From: Clostridiales bacterium
Lineage (GTDB): Bacteria > Bacillota > Clostridia > Oscillospirales > CAG-272
NCBI GenBank assembly: GCA_022793655.1
Contig: JAAWDG010000014.1
Span: forward strand, 98,636-162,635
Direction of reading: 5' to 3'
DNA length: 64,000 nt
The notes beneath the pieces were generated by a model. That model saw nothing but the letters and a program-made list of their open reading frames with translations. It was not told the DNA's origin and ran no database searches. Position numbers and translations under genes: made by a program. Below are positions 29,712 through 40,968 of this stretch, piece after piece (positions within the stretch are counted from its first letter, which is position 1; each line of letters begins with the position of its first letter).

Positions 29712-32585
<2,874 letters not shown>

Positions 32586-32747: not shown

Positions 32748-35258
32748 CTACTGACAGTATTTGGCGGTTGCTTCTTCTCTCATTTTGTATTTTAGAATTT
32801 TGCCGGCTGCATTCATGGGGAAAGCTTTGACAAAATCTACATATCTTGGCACTTTGTGCTTGGCCATGCTGGCTCTGACAAAGTCTTTCATTTCTTGCTC
32901 GGTCATGCTTTCACCATCTTTTAAAATGATGCAGGCGCATATTTCTTCGCCGTACTGTTTGTCTGGAACGCCAATGACCTGCACGTCCTTCACCTTAGGA
33001 TTCGTATAGATAAATTCTTCGATTTCCTTGGGATAAATGTTTTCACCGCCTCGGATAATCATATCCTTAAGCCGGCCGGTAATCTTATAGTTGCCTTCAG
33101 GCGTGCGGCAGGCCAGGTCACCGGTGTGCAGCCAACCGTCTTTGTCAATCGCAGTCGCGGTGGCTTCGGGCATTTTGTAATAGCCTTTCATTAAGTTATA
33201 GCCGCGGGCGACCATTTCACCATTGACATTATCGGGACAGTCCTCGCCGGTATCGGGATCAATGACTTTGCACTCGACATGGGGCAGGGCATAGCCCACC
33301 GTCTCGCACCGTTCATCCAACGGGTCATCGAGTTCGCTTTGGGTAATACCGGGGGAGGATTCGGTTTGGCCATAAACCGAGAGAATGCCGGTCATATGCA
33401 TTTCATCTGGCTGGGCAGCCCGTTTCATCAGTTCGGCCGGACAGCCAGAGCCAGCCATAATGCCGGTGCGCATATAGGAGAAGTTGGTTTTGCGGTAATC
33501 CTCATGATTCATCATGGCGATGTACATGGTTGGCACGCCGTGCATGACCGTGATTCTTTCCTGATTGATACAGGCAAGTGAGTTTTTCGCTGAAAAATAA
33601 GGCATAGGGCACATGGTAGAACCGTGGGTCGAGCAGGCGGTCATGGCTAATACCATGCCGAAACAATGGAACATGGGTACATGAATCAGCATGCGGTCGG
33701 CCGTAGAAAGATCCATGCGGTCGCCAATGCACTTACCGTTGTTCACCACACTGAAATGGGTCAGCATAACGCCTTTGGGGAAACCAGTCGTTCCTGAGGT
33801 ATACTGCATATTGCAGACATCGTGCGGGCTGACGGCCGCGGCCATGCGCTTGACTTGCTCGATTGGCACCGCATCGGCACGGGCCATGGCCTCTTCCCAT
33901 GTTAAACAGCCTTTCTGCCGATAACCCACCGTAATGACGTTTCTTAAGAAGGGCAGACGGCGGCAGTGTAGGGGTTTGCCTGGTTTGGTGTCAGCCAGTT
34001 CGGGGCACAGCTCGTCAATAATTTCAGCGTAGTTAGAATCTTGGCAAGATTCAATCATCACTAACGTGTGGGTGTCCGACTGTTTCAGCAGATATTCAGC
34101 CTCGTGTATTTTATAAGCTGTGTTCACCGTAACTAAAATCGCGCCGATTTTTGTGGCCGCCCAGAAAGTGATATACCAAGCGGGCACGTTGGTTGCCCAA
34201 ATAGCCACCTTGCTGCCGGCTTTTACACCCATCGAAATGAGCGTGCGTGCAAAGGTATCAACCTCATCGCGGAATTCCGCGTAGGTGCGGGTATAATCAA
34301 GCGTGGTATACTTGAACATGTATTGATCGGGAAATTCCTCTGCCATGCGATCGAGCACGTCGGAGAAGGTGCAGTTAATCAGGCTTTCCTTGGGCCACAC
34401 ATAATTTCCGGTGTGAATTTTATTGGTGTAGAGAAATTTTTTCTCTTCCTTTTTATCATAGCGGTTCATAAAGTTGACAAAGTGAGGGAAAATCACCGAC
34501 ATGTCTTGCAGCTCTTCGAGCCAAGCGGGGTCCCACTCTAATGATAAAAATCCATCGTAGCTGACTGAATCTAACGCGTTCATCAGTTCATCCAAAGGCA
34601 GGCTGCCTTCACCAATTAAGCAAAATTCAGTCTTGCCGTCCACGATTTCAGAATCTCGGATATGGACGTGCTTGATATAAGCGCCTAAGTTGGTAATGGA
34701 ATCCTGCGGACTTTCGCCGTTTTCGCGATAGGGATATTGAAAATCCCATAATACAGCTAAGTAGTCGGACGCATAGTCGTTGAGCAGATTGCGCAGCCGC
34801 TCGGTGTTAGCGTAAAATCCCATGGTCTCCATCAACAGCACAATATTGTTTTCTTCGGCCGTGGGCAGAACGGCGTCGATGATTTGTTTTATGATGCGGT
34901 CTTTTTCTTCTTCCGAACTAGTCAAGTCTTGTCCAATGGCATGCAGACGGATATAGGGAACTTTTAGGTTTTTCGCTGTGGTTAAACATGTTTGAATTTC
35001 TTGGCACTTTTCTTCTTCAGTCTGAGAAGAAAGCAAATCAGTAATCGAATTGATACAGGGAATGGTCAGCTTTTTACCCCACAGATCACGATAAGTTGCC
35101 GCCGCGGCAGCGGGGTCGGCCGGTCCTCTTTTTTTAGAAAAGGCCGGTGTATGTATATTGTGAATTTCAATACCAGAAAAGCCCATGTCCTGTGCGGCAA
35201 AGACAAATTCTTCCCAGCTGACATTGTGCCATCCTTTCGTCGAAAATGATAATTTCAT
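32748..35258 (-). CDS. Two-domain fusion: sugar phosphate isomerase/epimerase-like TIM barrel + AMP-dependent acyl-CoA synthetase
   Basis: N-term MKLSFSTKGWHNVSWEEFVFAAQDMGFSGIEIHN... ETMGFYANTERL... HIRD... LSLEWDP (AP_endonuc_2-like); C-term MQYTSGTTGFPKGVMLTH, YGQTESSP, GWLHTGDLA, KDMIIRGGENIYPKEIE. Confidence 0.9.
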   Translation of the reverse strand: MKLSFSTKGWHNVSWEEFVFAAQDMGFSGIEIHNIHTPAFSKKRGPADPAAAAATYRDLWGKKLTIPCINSITDLLSSQTEEEKCQEIQTCLTTAKNLKVPYIRLHAIGQDLTSSEEEKDRIIKQIIDAVLPTAEENNIVLLMETMGFYANTERLRNLLNDYASDYLAVLWDFQYPYRENGESPQDSITNLGAYIKHVHIRDSEIVDGKTEFCLIGEGSLPLDELMNALDSVSYDGFLSLEWDPAWLEELQDMSVIFPHFVNFMNRYDKKEEKKFLYTNKIHTGNYVWPKESLINCTFSDVLDRMAEEFPDQYMFKYTTLDYTRTYAEFRDEVDTFARTLISMGVKAGSKVAIWATNVPAWYITFWAATKIGAILVTVNTAYKIHEAEYLLKQSDTHTLVMIESCQDSNYAEIIDELCPELADTKPGKPLHCRRLPFLRNVITVGYRQKGCLTWEEAMARADAVPIEQVKRMAAAVSPHDVCNMQYTSGTTGFPKGVMLTHFSVVNNGKCIGDRMDLSTADRMLIHVPMFHCFGMVLAMTACSTHGSTMCPMPYFSAKNSLACINQERITVMHGVPTMYIAMMNHEDYRKTNFSYMRTGIMAGSGCPAELMKRAAQPDEMHMTGILSVYGQTESSPGITQSELDDPLDERCETVGYALPHVECKVIDPDTGEDCPDNVNGEMVARGYNLMKGYYKMPEATATAIDKDGWLHTGDLACRTPEGNYKITGRLKDMIIRGGENIYPKEIEEFIYTNPKVKDVQVIGVPDKQYGEEICACIILKDGESMTEQEMKDFVRASMAKHKVPRYVDFVKAFPMNAAGKILKYKMREEATAKYCQ

Positions 35259-35344
35259 CTTGTGAATATCCTTTCTATAAAACATTAAACCGAGAAATAC
35301 GAATCTTTCTGGTTCATTAAAGTGCAATCGTTAGTATCGGCCAT

Positions 35345-36754
35345 TTAATTGTTGCTTTCATATACAATCTTATTAATGGCGGCAATGTAAGCGCGAATGG
35401 CGGCGCCGATAATATCGGTGGAAATGCCGCTGCCTGAATACAGTCTGCCTTCATAACGCAGTTTGACAATGGCGCTGCCCACCGCTTCTTTACCTTCTGT
35501 GACGGCACGGATTTGGAAATCGTCGAGTTCATAATAACTACCGGCCACCTCTTCAATGGCATTGAAAGCGGCGTCAATCGGTCCGTCACCGGCGGATATG
35601 CCCGTTAGCATTTCACCATTTTTCTCAATTTTTATATGCGCCGTTGCGCTGATGATATTACCGGTGTTAATCACGTAACTTTCTAATTTGTAGGTTGGCG
35701 GCACTTGCAGAGCGGTGGAGGCGACAATGGCGTCTATTTCTTTAATGCCAATTGGTTTTTTGGCAGCCACACGCAAAAATTCTTCGTATACTTTGGCGCA
35801 CTCTTCTTCTGCCAAGTCATAGCCCAAGGTCTGAATGGCCGAAGAAATCGCGGTGATGTCATCATTTGCATCGTAAACAATATGTTCGTCATCTGGGTTG
35901 TCCCCTTCGTGGCCGGCTACGGTGTTCATTGCGCTTTGTGTATTGGTAAAACGCAGAATTTGTTTCATCGTGCGGTTCAGTTCGGTGGCCTTAATCGTAG
36001 CATAAATACCGAGTGAATCACCCCGTTGCGAAAGAATATTCGAGAGGGTTACAATCTGCGGCGCGTCGCTGCTGTCAAAGGTTGCTTTAATGCCGGCCGC
36101 ACCAACGCCGACGGCCGTGATGGAAGAAGCGGCCGCCAAGCCTAAAGCGTCGTTGCATAGCACCTTGAGAAAAATATTTTTAAGCGAGGGGATATGGTCG
36201 TATAATTTTTGTACAAAAGCGGCGAATTCTTCGGGCAGCATGATGCCGGCCGTATCGCAAATGGTGATGCTGGCAGCGCCAGCTGTGATTGCCGTTTCGA
36301 TGGCTTTTACTAAAAATTCAAATTCAGCGCGGGTGGCATCCTCGGCGCAAAATTCCACATCTTGACATAAGGACGCGCATTTACGGGTGAGCTTATCAAT
36401 CGTCTCAACCATAGCGGCCGGCTTTTTGCGAGCTATGAACTCCATCTGCACACTGGAGACAGGCAGGCTCACCACCAACCGGGGCCGTACTGCACCGCTT
36501 ACGGCTGACCATGCAAGTTCCGCCTCGCTCTCGCTCATGCCGACCGGCAGAGATACAGCTGCGTTTTTAACGGCAGAGGCAATGGTTTTAATCAGCAAAA
36601 GATCTGTTTTTTGATTGGTAATGGGTGAAAGCTCAATGGCACTGACATTCAGCCGGTCTAATGCCTTGGCGATTTCAATTTTTTCTTTGAAACTAAGGGA
36701 GCCGTTTTCGGCGGCTTTCCGAATGGTGACGTCGGTTATGCTTACCTTTTTCAT
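35345..36754 (-). CDS. 2-isopropylmalate synthase-like protein (HMGL-like + LeuA regulatory domain) with degenerate active-site motifs
   Basis: HMGL-like barrel plus LeuA-dimer-like C-terminus (GDGPIDAAFNAIEEV, DFQIRAVTEGKEAVGSAIVKLRYEGRLYSGSGISTDIIGAAIRAYIAAINKI); RDG and HxH motifs absent. Confidence 0.8.
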   Translation of the reverse strand: MKKVSITDVTIRKAAENGSLSFKEKIEIAKALDRLNVSAIELSPITNQKTDLLLIKTIASAVKNAAVSLPVGMSESEAELAWSAVSGAVRPRLVVSLPVSSVQMEFIARKKPAAMVETIDKLTRKCASLCQDVEFCAEDATRAEFEFLVKAIETAITAGAASITICDTAGIMLPEEFAAFVQKLYDHIPSLKNIFLKVLCNDALGLAAASSITAVGVGAAGIKATFDSSDAPQIVTLSNILSQRGDSLGIYATIKATELNRTMKQILRFTNTQSAMNTVAGHEGDNPDDEHIVYDANDDITAISSAIQTLGYDLAEEECAKVYEEFLRVAAKKPIGIKEIDAIVASTALQVPPTYKLESYVINTGNIISATAHIKIEKNGEMLTGISAGDGPIDAAFNAIEEVAGSYYELDDFQIRAVTEGKEAVGSAIVKLRYEGRLYSGSGISTDIIGAAIRAYIAAINKIVYESNN

Positions 36755-36834: not shown

Positions 36835-37094
36835 AAAAAAATCCCTGAGGCTTGATAGCCTCAGGGACGAATCAATCGCGGTACCACCCTGATTACTGCA
36901 AGTATGCAGTCACTCTTTGGATTCAATCAAATCCATAGCCATGATAACGGGGCATCCGTAACCCTCTACTGCGCTTTCAAGGGTTATGCTCAGAAGTGAG
37001 AGCGCTTTACAATCAAACCACCGATTCTCACCTGCCATCGGCTCTCTTTCGATTTGCGGCTGCAAAGCTTAGCTTCTTCAATGCATTTCAATTT
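36835..37094 (-). promoter_or_regulatory. T-box leader, predicted Leu (CUC specifier)
   Basis: Minus strand: T-box sequence AGGGTGGTACCGCG, terminator TCCCTGAGGctatcaaGCCTCAGGGATTTTTTT, stem I AGAAG..GCTTT/AAAGC..CTTCT with internal loop gctCTCa. Confidence 0.9.
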
Positions 37095-37100
37095 TTGATT

Positions 37101-37129
37101 ATCATAGCACAATAAAATCGGCTTGTCAA
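37101..37129 (-). promoter_or_regulatory. Promoter of the T-box operon
   Basis: Minus strand TTGACA (37124-37129), 17 nt, TATGAT (37101-37106). Confidence 0.75.
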
Positions 37130-37321: not shown

Positions 37322-37488
37322 TAAAGCAAGCAGGTCGGCGGAAAACAAACGAAAAAAGGACTAAGTATATCACTTGTTCTCATAGAAATAGGTATAGACG
37401 ACTGTTTGGCTATGTTTTTTTGTATTTTGTATGAGAAAATATACCAGGCAGAGTTTTGCTGTATAATCATCAGTATGGAGGATTTTTT

Positions 37489-38349
37489 ATGGTGAATGAT
37501 TTTGTGATCTACGCGGATACCGCGTCAGATATTGATGAAAAACGTGCGGAGGCGTATGATGTGCAATTAATCAAACTGCCGCTGACGATGGATGGTTCGC
37601 CATTAGATGATCATTTTGATACAAAAGTTTTTTATGATAAACTGCGTGACGGCGCCGTGGCTTCGACCTCGGCAGCCAATACGGCTACTTTGACCGATTT
37701 ATTTGAAAAAGAACTGGCAGCGGGAAAAGACGTGCTTTATATTGCCTTTTCATCGGGTTTGTCTGTGACTTATGGCTGCGCTGTTTTGGCTAAAGAAGAA
37801 TTAGAAACGCGTTTTCCTGAACGAAAAATCTGTGTGGTCGATTCGCTCGCGGCTTCCAGCGGATATGGACTTTTAGTATATTATGCGTCTAAAATGAAAA
37901 AAGATGGAAACAGTATAGATGAGATCGAGCAGTTTATTACCGAAAACCGGCTGCATTTGTGTCATCAGTTTACGGTGGATGATTTGTTTTTCTTAAAGCG
38001 TGGCGGGCGTATTTCGGCCGCAACGGCTCTTGCCGGCAGTATGCTCAACATTAAACCGGTTTTGCATGTGGATGACGAAGGCCATTTGATTAATATTGGC
38101 AAAGCCCGCGGAAGACTTGCTTCTATCAAAGCGCTTGCCGATAAAATGGTTGACACCGTGATCAATCCTTTAGAGCAAAAGGTTATGATTGGCCATGGCG
38201 ACTGCGAAAAAGATGCGCAGCTTTTGGCCGAAATGATTCGGAAGCAAATGGGCATTACCGATATAGAGATTTATTATATAGGGCCTGTCATCGGCGCCCA
38301 TTCAGGACCGGGTACCCTTGCTCTGTTTTATTTAGGAACACAGAGATAA
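37489..38349 (+). CDS. DegV-family fatty-acid-binding protein (FakB-like)
   Basis: VIYADTASDIDEKRAEAYDVQLIKLPL, FSSGLSVTYGCAV, GPVIGAHSGPGTLALFYLG; SD tggagg. Confidence 0.9.
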   Translation: MVNDFVIYADTASDIDEKRAEAYDVQLIKLPLTMDGSPLDDHFDTKVFYDKLRDGAVASTSAANTATLTDLFEKELAAGKDVLYIAFSSGLSVTYGCAVLAKEELETRFPERKICVVDSLAASSGYGLLVYYASKMKKDGNSIDEIEQFITENRLHLCHQFTVDDLFFLKRGGRISAATALAGSMLNIKPVLHVDDEGHLINIGKARGRLASIKALADKMVDTVINPLEQKVMIGHGDCEKDAQLLAEMIRKQMGITDIEIYYIGPVIGAHSGPGTLALFYLGTQR

Positions 38350-38373
38350 AACGAATATAAAGAGAGAGTAGAT

Positions 38374-40014
38374 ATGAAGATTAACGGAGATATTTTTCGC
38401 GACATGGTCATCAGCGCAGCGAACGCGCTTGACAATCATAAAGAAGAAATCAATAATTTGAATGTTTTTCCTGTGCCGGATGGAGATACGGGCATTAATA
38501 TGAGCCTTACGATGAGTCAGTGCCGAACCGATCTTAGTGACTTTGACGGCACACTTTCCGACTGTGCTGAAAAAATCGCGGGGCTCATGCTGCGCGGCGC
38601 AAGAGGAAATTCAGGGGTTATCTTATCGGTCTTTTTCAGAGGCATGGCCAAGAGCCTCAAGGATAAAACAGAGGCCGATGCAATTGATATGGCCAAAGCC
38701 ATGAGCAAGGGCGTTGAGGACGCCTATAAAGCGGTCATGACCCCGACTGAAGGCACCATTTTGACGGTGATGCGCGTATGCGCTGAACAGGCAATGGCGG
38801 TGGCCGAGTCTACTTATAAAGAAGACGCCGTTGGTTTCTTTCAGTATTTGTTGTCAGTCGCGGTGGATACGCTTGGCAAAACGCCGGATATGCTGCCCGT
38901 TTTAAAACAGGCGAATGTTGTCGATTCAGGCGGGCAGGGTTTTGTAACGATTCTCGAGGGCATGCTTGCCTCGCTTGAGGGCAAACCGGTCGTATGCAAT
39001 GGTCCGGCCGAAGACGCCGCGCCGGTGAGCGCATCGACTGCTAATTTTGATCAGTTTAATACAGAGAATATCAAATTCTCCTATTGTACCGAGTGCATTG
39101 TAACCAAGAGCGAAAAATATTTTGGCGAAGAAAAAGCAGGCCGCCTTCATAAGTATATTATGGGCATGGGCGACAGCGTTGTGTTTATTGAAAATGCAGA
39201 TATGATTAAGCTGCATGTCCATACGAACGCACCGGGCAAAGTGCTGACAGAGGCATTGAAATATGGTTCTCTGTTTACGGTAAAAATTGAGAATATGCGC
39301 AATCAGCATACAGCGTTAGTAAAAGAAAAACCGGTCGAGAAGCCGGCGGAAAAACCGAAAAAGTACGGCTTTGTCACCGTGTGCATGGGCGATGGTCTCA
39401 AAGCTTGTTTTGAAGATTTAGGGGTAGATTTTATTGTATATGGCGGTCAGACAATGAATCCGTCCACCGATGATTTGCTGCATGCAGTAAGTCAGGTGAA
39501 TGCAGAAAATGTGTTTATTCTGCCTAATAACAAAAATATCTATATGGTTGCTAAGCAAGCCGAAGAACTTTCAACTGATAAGAAAGTCATGGTGATTCCA
39601 ACTAGAAGCGTGCCGCAGGGTCTTAGCGCTTTGATGGCCTTTGATGAAAATGTAAACGCCGATAAAAATATGGATGCGATGCTCGATGCCATCGGTCTTG
39701 TCAAAACATTCTCGGTTACCTATGCGGTGCGGGACTCTGTGATAGGGGAGAACACCATTAGTGAAGGGGCCGTGCTTGGCCTTGCCGAAGGAAAAATTGC
39801 CTGCGTGGCTGACAATGATCTTGAGTGCGTAAAAGCTATGACAGAGCGTATGAAAGACGCGTCTATGATTACGCTGTTTTATGGTGAAGATGTCTCAGAA
39901 GAAGAGGCCGCCAAAGCGGGCGATCTCTTGCGGGAAGCGGCAGGCGACTATTGTGAAGTGGTTGTGCTGAGCGGCGGTCAGCCTCTCTATCACTATATTA
40001 TTTCTGTGGAATGA
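38374..40014 (+). CDS. fakA: DAK2-domain fatty acid kinase
   Basis: NNLNVFPVPDGDTGINMSLTM, RGARGNSGVILSVFFRGM, VDSGGQGFVTILEGM; flanked by DegV genes. Confidence 0.93.
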   Translation: MKINGDIFRDMVISAANALDNHKEEINNLNVFPVPDGDTGINMSLTMSQCRTDLSDFDGTLSDCAEKIAGLMLRGARGNSGVILSVFFRGMAKSLKDKTEADAIDMAKAMSKGVEDAYKAVMTPTEGTILTVMRVCAEQAMAVAESTYKEDAVGFFQYLLSVAVDTLGKTPDMLPVLKQANVVDSGGQGFVTILEGMLASLEGKPVVCNGPAEDAAPVSASTANFDQFNTENIKFSYCTECIVTKSEKYFGEEKAGRLHKYIMGMGDSVVFIENADMIKLHVHTNAPGKVLTEALKYGSLFTVKIENMRNQHTALVKEKPVEKPAEKPKKYGFVTVCMGDGLKACFEDLGVDFIVYGGQTMNPSTDDLLHAVSQVNAENVFILPNNKNIYMVAKQAEELSTDKKVMVIPTRSVPQGLSALMAFDENVNADKNMDAMLDAIGLVKTFSVTYAVRDSVIGENTISEGAVLGLAEGKIACVADNDLECVKAMTERMKDASMITLFYGEDVSEEEAAKAGDLLREAAGDYCEVVVLSGGQPLYHYIISVE

Positions 40015-40080
40015 GAAGACGGGGCTTTGCTCCGTCCTTTTCGTTACAGGCATTTTGTTTATAAGAAGGGAATTATTGTT

Positions 40081-40968
40081 ATGTCATATAAAATTCTTAC
40101 TGATTCGGCCAGCAATTTGACCCCGCAGGATGCGGAACAATACAAGATAGAGGTTGTCCCGTTTACGTTCAGCATGGGCGGCCGAGATTTTAAGTGTTAT
40201 GCGCCCGGTGTGGATCAGGCCGATGAACTGGCCCGATTTTATGAATTAATGCGGGTAAAGGCGGATGTAAAAACATCTATGGTGAACGCTGACCGTATGT
40301 TAAATGCGATTGAATCGATTTTTTTGAGTGGTGAAGATGTGCTTTTTATTGGCATTTCCGGACAGATTTCGGGCACTATGCAGGCGGCGCGTGCGGCGGC
40401 TGAAGAAGCGATGGAGCGTTATCCTGAGCGAAACTGCGTTATCGTTGATTCACTTTCTGCTTCGCTTGGAGAGGGCTTGCTTGCGATTCGTGCCTCAGAA
40501 ATGCAGCAACAGGGGTTCACGATTTATGAAACCGCCACGGCCATTGAGGCGCTGAAAATGAAGTTGTGCCAGCAATTTACCGTGGACGATCTCTATTTTT
40601 TAAAACGCAGCGGCCGGGTGAGTTCTCTTTCGGCTTTTGCGGGCAGTATGATGGGCATAAAACCCATGCTGTATGGATCTGACGCGGGGCGCATCGAGTT
40701 GTCAGGCAAGATTCGGGGTCGCGCGAAAGCGATGGCCGCTTTGGCTGATTCGTTGGCGGCGCATTGTCAATCAAAAGATGATTTAATTGGCATCACGCAT
40801 GGCGATTGTGAAGAAGATGCGCTTTTACTTCGCGATATGATTATGAGCCGCACGGGCGCTGAACATTTTATGATTCGCTGTTTTGATCTTTGCACAGGTG
40901 CGCATGCTGGGCCGGGGGCGTTGGCGGTATTTTATATTTCCAAAACAGGCCGCCGTGTTTTGCCGTGA
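40081..40968 (+). CDS. DegV-family fatty-acid-binding protein (FakB-like), second copy
   Basis: YKILTDSASNLTPQDAEQYKIEVVPFTF, GISGQISGTMQAARAA, GAHAGPGALAVFYI. Confidence 0.9.
   Translation: MSYKILTDSASNLTPQDAEQYKIEVVPFTFSMGGRDFKCYAPGVDQADELARFYELMRVKADVKTSMVNADRMLNAIESIFLSGEDVLFIGISGQISGTMQAARAAAEEAMERYPERNCVIVDSLSASLGEGLLAIRASEMQQQGFTIYETATAIEALKMKLCQQFTVDDLYFLKRSGRVSSLSAFAGSMMGIKPMLYGSDAGRIELSGKIRGRAKAMAALADSLAAHCQSKDDLIGITHGDCEEDALLLRDMIMSRTGAEHFMIRCFDLCTGAHAGPGALAVFYISKTGRRVLP

Follow-up and report, generated by a model that had tools for sequence, protein, structure and literature searches.

In LeuA (2-isopropylmalate synthase, IPMS) and in CimA, LeuA_dimer is the domain to which the amino acid made by the pathway binds. 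In the mycobacterial LeuA, the leucine pocket lies at the dimer interface of this regulatory domain, and a change in an adjacent loop has been reported to disrupt feedback (PMC11057210). The protein analyzed here, which we named psLeuA, resembles LeuA type 1 (TIGR00973/PRK00915) in having an HMGL barrel and a LeuA_dimer domain, and LeuA type 1 is also its nearest branch in the tree. It differs from LeuA type 1 in that the metal site, a conserved catalytic arginine and the GERAGN motif are absent, NAFAHESGIHQHG is deleted, every equivalog cut-off is missed, and the gene is coupled to an acyl-CoA ligase instead of leuBCD.

A retired enzyme in a regulatory position is known from histidine biosynthesis, where HisZ, a histidyl-tRNA-synthetase-like protein, has the proven function of regulatory subunit of the short ATP phosphoribosyltransferase HisG (PMC10795190). 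By analogy, psLeuA in its proposed role would likewise be a retired enzyme paralogue serving an amino-acid biosynthetic enzyme as a regulatory subunit. The two proteins have unrelated folds, and whereas the role of HisZ is proven, that of psLeuA is inferred. Two HisZ-like criteria are met by psLeuA, namely a conserved fold with lost catalytic residues and a constant partner enzyme.

Leucine formation from isovalerate by carboxylation and amination in rumen bacteria goes back to Allison et al. (1962, 1966), as cited in PMC7356843. The route needs a ligase, a 2-ketoisovalerate-type ferredoxin oxidoreductase and a branched-chain aminotransferase, and the genes found here are of these kinds, stand under leucine control and take the place of the LeuA route. 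For the isovalerate-to-leucine route, neither assigned genes nor a regulator were found in the open-licence literature; a leucine T-box operon that includes a LeuA-derived protein is proposed here. Among the ligases, Staphylococcus aureus MbcS accepts 2-methylbutyrate and isobutyrate, and isovalerate poorly (PMC10026030). Nothing pertinent to a LeuA pseudoenzyme, or to a T-box/acyl-CoA-synthetase/Vor leucine operon, was found in the open-licence PMC literature, which is weak evidence of novelty; as the literature coverage is partial, the novelty is provisional.

The psLeuA gene and its upstream region

The window, that is, the whole stretch of 64,000 nucleotides that was analyzed, carries psLeuA together with the features listed in Table 1.

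Table 1. Positions of the psLeuA locus features in the window.
Feature	Positions	Strand	Details
Sigma-70-like promoter, TTGACA-17-TATGAT, extended -10	37101..37129	-	11/12 consensus matches; consensus only
T-box leader, RF00230	36860..37090	-	Score 122 bits against a gathering cut-off of 93; Leu specifier CTC at 37000-36998
Intrinsic terminator of the T-box	36841..36868	-	12-bp stem, then T run
psLeuA, catalytically dead LeuA homologue (predicted)	35345..36754	-	469 aa
HMGL-like TIM barrel of psLeuA	36071..36754	-	Residues 1-228; active site eroded
LeuA_dimer regulatory domain of psLeuA	35366..35743	-	Residues 338-463; high conservation, with the GDGPIDA and GSGISTDI motifs intact
Xylose-isomerase-like TIM domain fused to AMP-forming acyl-CoA ligase (partner)	32748..35258	-	836 aa
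AP_endonuc_2/xylose-isomerase-like TIM domain of the ligase	34419..35258	-	

Both Pfam domains of LeuA were recognized in psLeuA above their cut-offs, PF00682 (HMGL-like) with 119 bits at residues 4-225 and PF08502 (LeuA_dimer) with 105 bits at residues 338-463, in agreement with the initial annotation, according to which the HMGL fold and the LeuA regulatory domain had been kept. All NCBIfam LeuA equivalogs also match the protein, at about half of their cut-off or less (the best with 282 versus 532, TIGR00973 with 264 versus 599), and among solved structures IPMS barrels come closest (E ~1e-25 to 1e-29). The same annotation had considered the catalytic and metal motifs lost. The three sequences that it quoted are present and align with the motifs of LeuA proteins from the same order: D8-VTIRKAAENGS with DTTLRDGEQ, VLCNDALGLA (198-207) with HCHNDLG, and ATFDSSDAPQIV (225-236) with GIGERAGN. 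The metal-ligand positions of HxHND are occupied by L199 and N201.

The suggested position of the gene behind a Leu T-box could be substantiated by the covariance model score, the leucine specifier and the terminator hairpin (Table 1). T-boxes were recognized upstream of 68 of 81 psLeuA loci, and the specifiers that could be read at a fixed geometry were leucine codons in 66 of 66 cases (61 CUC and 5 CUG, CTC and CTG in the DNA). The points that go beyond the initial annotation are the deletion of NAFAHESGIHQHG, the family-wide extent of the losses, the fused acyl-CoA ligase downstream and the absence of LeuA elsewhere in the genome.

Two other gene groups of the window were also recorded. A 942-aa beta-galactosidase-like (GH2-type) ORF at 29712-32540 lies after the operon in the same orientation; it is also present in locus L002 and is probably unrelated. 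A divergent cluster at 37456-40968, with two DegV-like ORFs around a DAK2-like ORF, lies beside psLeuA elsewhere in L002 only.

Active site and regulatory domain in the psLeuA family

One genome scan yielded 152 confirmed psLeuA relatives, of which 80 were kept. They originate mostly from metagenome-assembled genomes (MAGs) of rumen and gut Clostridia, with the cultured Bittarella and Neobittarella massiliensis in addition, and they encode full-length proteins of 457-513 aa without stops. For the analysis of the active site, 61 non-redundant members were aligned with 11 LeuA or LeuA-like proteins from the order in which all motifs are complete. Eight positions that are fixed in the 11 references (D13, G14, Q16, H103, E138, H199, H201 and D203) are not kept in the psLeuA family, and R12, also fixed in the references, is retained in only 18/61 members. 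The GGERAGN loop is deleted or variable, and the NAFAHESGIHQHG catalytic segment is deleted, in all 61. Still conserved in the barrel are D8, T10, E41, D139, R142 and D167.

Column 199 contains Q, K, S or L and column 201 contains S, N, D or R; both vary freely, and no compensating conserved His/Asp set was found in the alignment of the 61 members. There is therefore no support for other metal ligands in the active site, which would have refuted the pseudoenzyme reading. With catalytic elements variable or deleted in 61 homologues and the amino-acid-binding domain as the most conserved part, the description of the protein as a LeuA-like pseudoenzyme gains support. On this sequence evidence, which is strong, IPMS chemistry has almost certainly been lost in psLeuA.

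The mean pairwise identity in the psLeuA family is 70% for the LeuA_dimer domain and 46% for the barrel, the reverse of what can be observed in seven true LeuA proteins (46% and 58%, respectively), and the regulatory-domain motifs GDGPIDA, VTEG and GISTDI are kept. Comparison of the window gene with that of L002 (protein 91% identical) gave a dN of 0.048 and a dS of 1.17; the resulting dN/dS of ~0.04 indicates that purifying selection is strong. A maximum-likelihood tree with a limited LeuA sample groups the family into a single clade (100/100) with a long branch, on the LeuA side and apart from the LeuA-like 530-aa paralogues. A divergent psLeuA group with FRAKNE in place of HxH was noticed in genus g130 (L146:7553-8992, L147:5177-6598); it occurs beside canonical LeuA in 2/3 genomes and is a possible intermediate.

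The AlphaFold2 model of psLeuA has a pLDDT of 91.8, with very low confidence solely at residues 277-290, the site of the missing catalytic segment, and Foldseek pairs its barrel with the IPMS structures 3EWB, 3EEG and 3RMJ. When the C-terminal domain was modeled alone (pLDDT 88), 12/12 PDB matches at E<=0.001 were LeuA or CimA regulatory structures, including the leucine-bound 3FIG and the isoleucine-bound 3F6G/H. Leucine and isoleucine binding by psLeuA are not distinguishable from this predicted fold.

Partner ligase, neighboring genes and co-occurrence

Directly after psLeuA and in the same orientation, 92/92 loci carry a gene for a TIM-acyl-CoA-ligase fusion (TIM-ligase, ~840 aa), and in 87 of these the gap between the two genes is only -4 to +5 nt. 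In the window the distance from psLeuA to the ligase ATG at 35258 is larger (86 nt), with the ORF open from a TTG at 35327. The solved relatives nearest to the TIM-ligase are general fatty-acyl/aryl-CoA ligases. An exclusive tie of the ligase to psLeuA was rejected, as genomes with LeuA can also have stand-alone TIM-ligases preceded by Leu T-boxes; psLeuA is thus not required for ligase function. Examples of such T-boxes are L113:9739-9991, L117:2701-2936 and L120:8203-8439, all without psLeuA and most with LeuA in the genome. We also observed that the E-D-H-E metal site of the ligase TIM domain is intact in 10/10 fusions of psLeuA-free genomes and eroded in many psLeuA-associated fusions (D172 47/93, H199 72/93, E241 41/93).

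Many psLeuA loci add VorABC, ferredoxin (Fd), a small P-loop ATPase, IlvE and an amidohydrolase, Vor being linked to psLeuA in part of the loci only. The order is ATPase-Fd-VorA-VorB-VorC-IlvE-psLeuA-ligase in one gene run of L149, and in L148 a Leu T-box is followed by psLeuA-ligase-IlvE-ATPase-Fd-VorA-VorB. A TatD-like/amidohydrolase-type protein (~269 aa) is a frequent neighbor of the psLeuA-ligase pair (L009:3189-3998 and 32 other loci).

In the genome from which the window derives, VorABC, ferredoxin and IlvE are encoded in an operon on another contig (L137:642-10452; C15 of G000, ~130640-140450), which consists of an Ile T-box, two XRE-HTH/cupin/MbcS-like AMP-forming ligases as first genes, a P-loop ATPase, ferredoxin, VorABC and IlvE. 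The T-box scores 89.8 bits (E 2e-20), just below the gathering threshold of 93, with the specifier AUC (Ile) at the same geometry. VorA exceeds the cut-off of the NCBIfam model "3-methyl-2-oxobutanoate dehydrogenase subunit VorB", as does IlvE those of two branched-chain aminotransferase equivalogs. MbcS (NF047394) is the best match of the one ligase tested, which differs from it in scoring 441 versus a cut-off of 850, in its HTH and cupin domains and in its position behind an Ile T-box. This operon is likely a 2-methylbutyrate/isobutyrate route to isoleucine and valine. A search of the same genome (94% complete) for the separate canonical leuA whose presence had remained to be checked gave no match, and neither did searches for LeuB and IlvC; a second HMGL protein (contig C10) was rejected as LeuA, its 72 bits being too weak.

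Co-occurrence was analyzed in 117 genomes of the order, 24 of them with the psLeuA family; score and coverage were the basis for assigning LeuA proteins to type 2. The TIM-ligase is present in 24/24 psLeuA genomes and the Vor beta subunit in 22/24. psLeuA and LeuA overlap in a single genome (G110), as compared to ~17 expected (Fisher p ~4e-15). LeuB over the cut-off was found in 1/24 psLeuA genomes versus 68/93 others, and IlvC in 3/24 versus 51/93. At the class level (291 genomes), 32 strict psLeuA members and 91 type-1 LeuA genomes show an overlap of 0 where 10 would be expected (p ~3e-6). Relatedness of the genomes inflates these p values; the pattern nevertheless recurs across many families, and genus g146 contains both psLeuA-type and LeuA-type genomes. 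Across the 117 genomes of the order, psLeuA nearly excludes true LeuA.

Proposed role of psLeuA and alternative explanations

The explanation that we favor, although with reservations, is that psLeuA is a LeuA-derived pseudoenzyme that serves as a leucine-sensing subunit and exerts feedback regulation on an isovalerate:CoA ligase; leucine binding, the substrate and the interaction are inferred. psLeuA would be a retired 2-isopropylmalate synthase that has retained a folded barrel and, most notably, its LeuA_dimer domain, and it would be co-produced with the TIM-ligase under the leucine T-box, so that both appear when charged tRNA-Leu is low. The ligase would most likely turn exogenous isovalerate into isovaleryl-CoA, VorABC with ferredoxin would carboxylate isovaleryl-CoA to 2-ketoisocaproate, and IlvE would aminate the latter to leucine, with psLeuA as the putative leucine-responsive regulatory subunit of the first enzyme of this new route. 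The evidence for the leucine/isovalerate pathway is good and we regard the pathway as likely, with isovalerate as an inferred substrate. For regulation of the TIM-ligase by psLeuA the evidence is moderate; it is somewhat more probable than its absence, and in the absence of biochemistry both the physical interaction and the sign of regulation are inferences. Because the genome has its own MbcS-like ligases behind an Ile T-box, and because MbcS is poor on isovalerate, isovalerate would be left for the leucine-controlled ligase. The simplest inference is a division of labor, with MbcS-like ligases for isoleucine and valine and the leucine-controlled TIM-ligase for isovalerate. Several observations count against the explanation of psLeuA as a leucine-sensing subunit of the ligase: a few genomes keep both systems (G110, and g130 with its divergent psLeuA), TIM-ligases exist without psLeuA, conserved barrel residues may still bind a ligand, the fold leaves open whether leucine or isoleucine is bound, and in the window's genome the gap to the ligase is larger and Vor and IlvE lie on another contig.

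The initial annotation had offered a leucine sensor or regulatory subunit, or else an enzyme with a different chemistry. The coupled ligase, the Leu T-box, the presence of Vor and IlvE and the mutual exclusion with LeuA favor the sensor over new chemistry, the sensor role itself being an inference. An unlikely alternative is that psLeuA catalyzes a different, metal-independent reaction of the same leucine pathway. The barrel residues D8, T10, K25, E41, S100, M104, D139, R142 and D167 are invariant or near-invariant, a conservation beyond the need of a pure scaffold, and owing to such residues psLeuA may retain ligand binding or some other activity. However, no further step is needed in the ligase-Vor-IlvE route, the barrel is less conserved than the dimer domain (46% versus 70%), and the metal, arginine and CoA-segment positions vary freely without any new conserved set in their place.

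It is similarly doubtful that psLeuA senses leucine and acts on another partner (the Vor complex, a transporter or a regulator), or serves as a leucine buffer, rather than acting on the ligase. The intact regulatory domain and the presence of Vor and IlvE in the same operons would be compatible with this, but the TIM-ligase is the only invariant neighbor, mostly overlapping or abutting in the 92 loci, and Vor is linked in only part of them. Despite its clear LeuA homology in both fold and sequence, it is very improbable that psLeuA has remained a 2-isopropylmalate synthase that works with unusual ligands in its active site. The two His ligands and the Arg, together with the GERAGN motif and the NAFAHESGIHQHG segment, are unconserved or gone in the 61 members, and with LeuB and IlvC missing from the genome there is no downstream pathway for IPMS. 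A pseudogene on its way out, as the loss of catalytic motifs might suggest, was rejected as next to impossible in view of the low dN/dS, the full-length ORFs in more than 90 loci, the conserved T-box and operon, and the deep clade.

In a more far-reaching reading, these clostridia would have exchanged the pyruvate route to leucine for the carboxylation of scavenged isovalerate, kept the old first enzyme for its leucine sensor only and attached it to the first enzyme of the new route, an unrelated acyl-CoA ligase. Allosteric pseudo-subunits derived from LeuA would then form a class of their own and be a marker of bacteria that make leucine from isovalerate; the odds of this reading are evenly balanced in our judgment. 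In genome-scale metabolic models psLeuA is easily misread as leuA, by which a pyruvate-based leucine pathway would be wrongly credited. If the proposal is true, allosteric feedback has been moved between unrelated enzymes through a dead paralogue. It would also provide a genetic signature for the isovalerate-to-leucine pathway, known since the 1960s mainly via feeding experiments, and would help to explain from genomes the requirement of some gut bacteria for branched-chain fatty acids.
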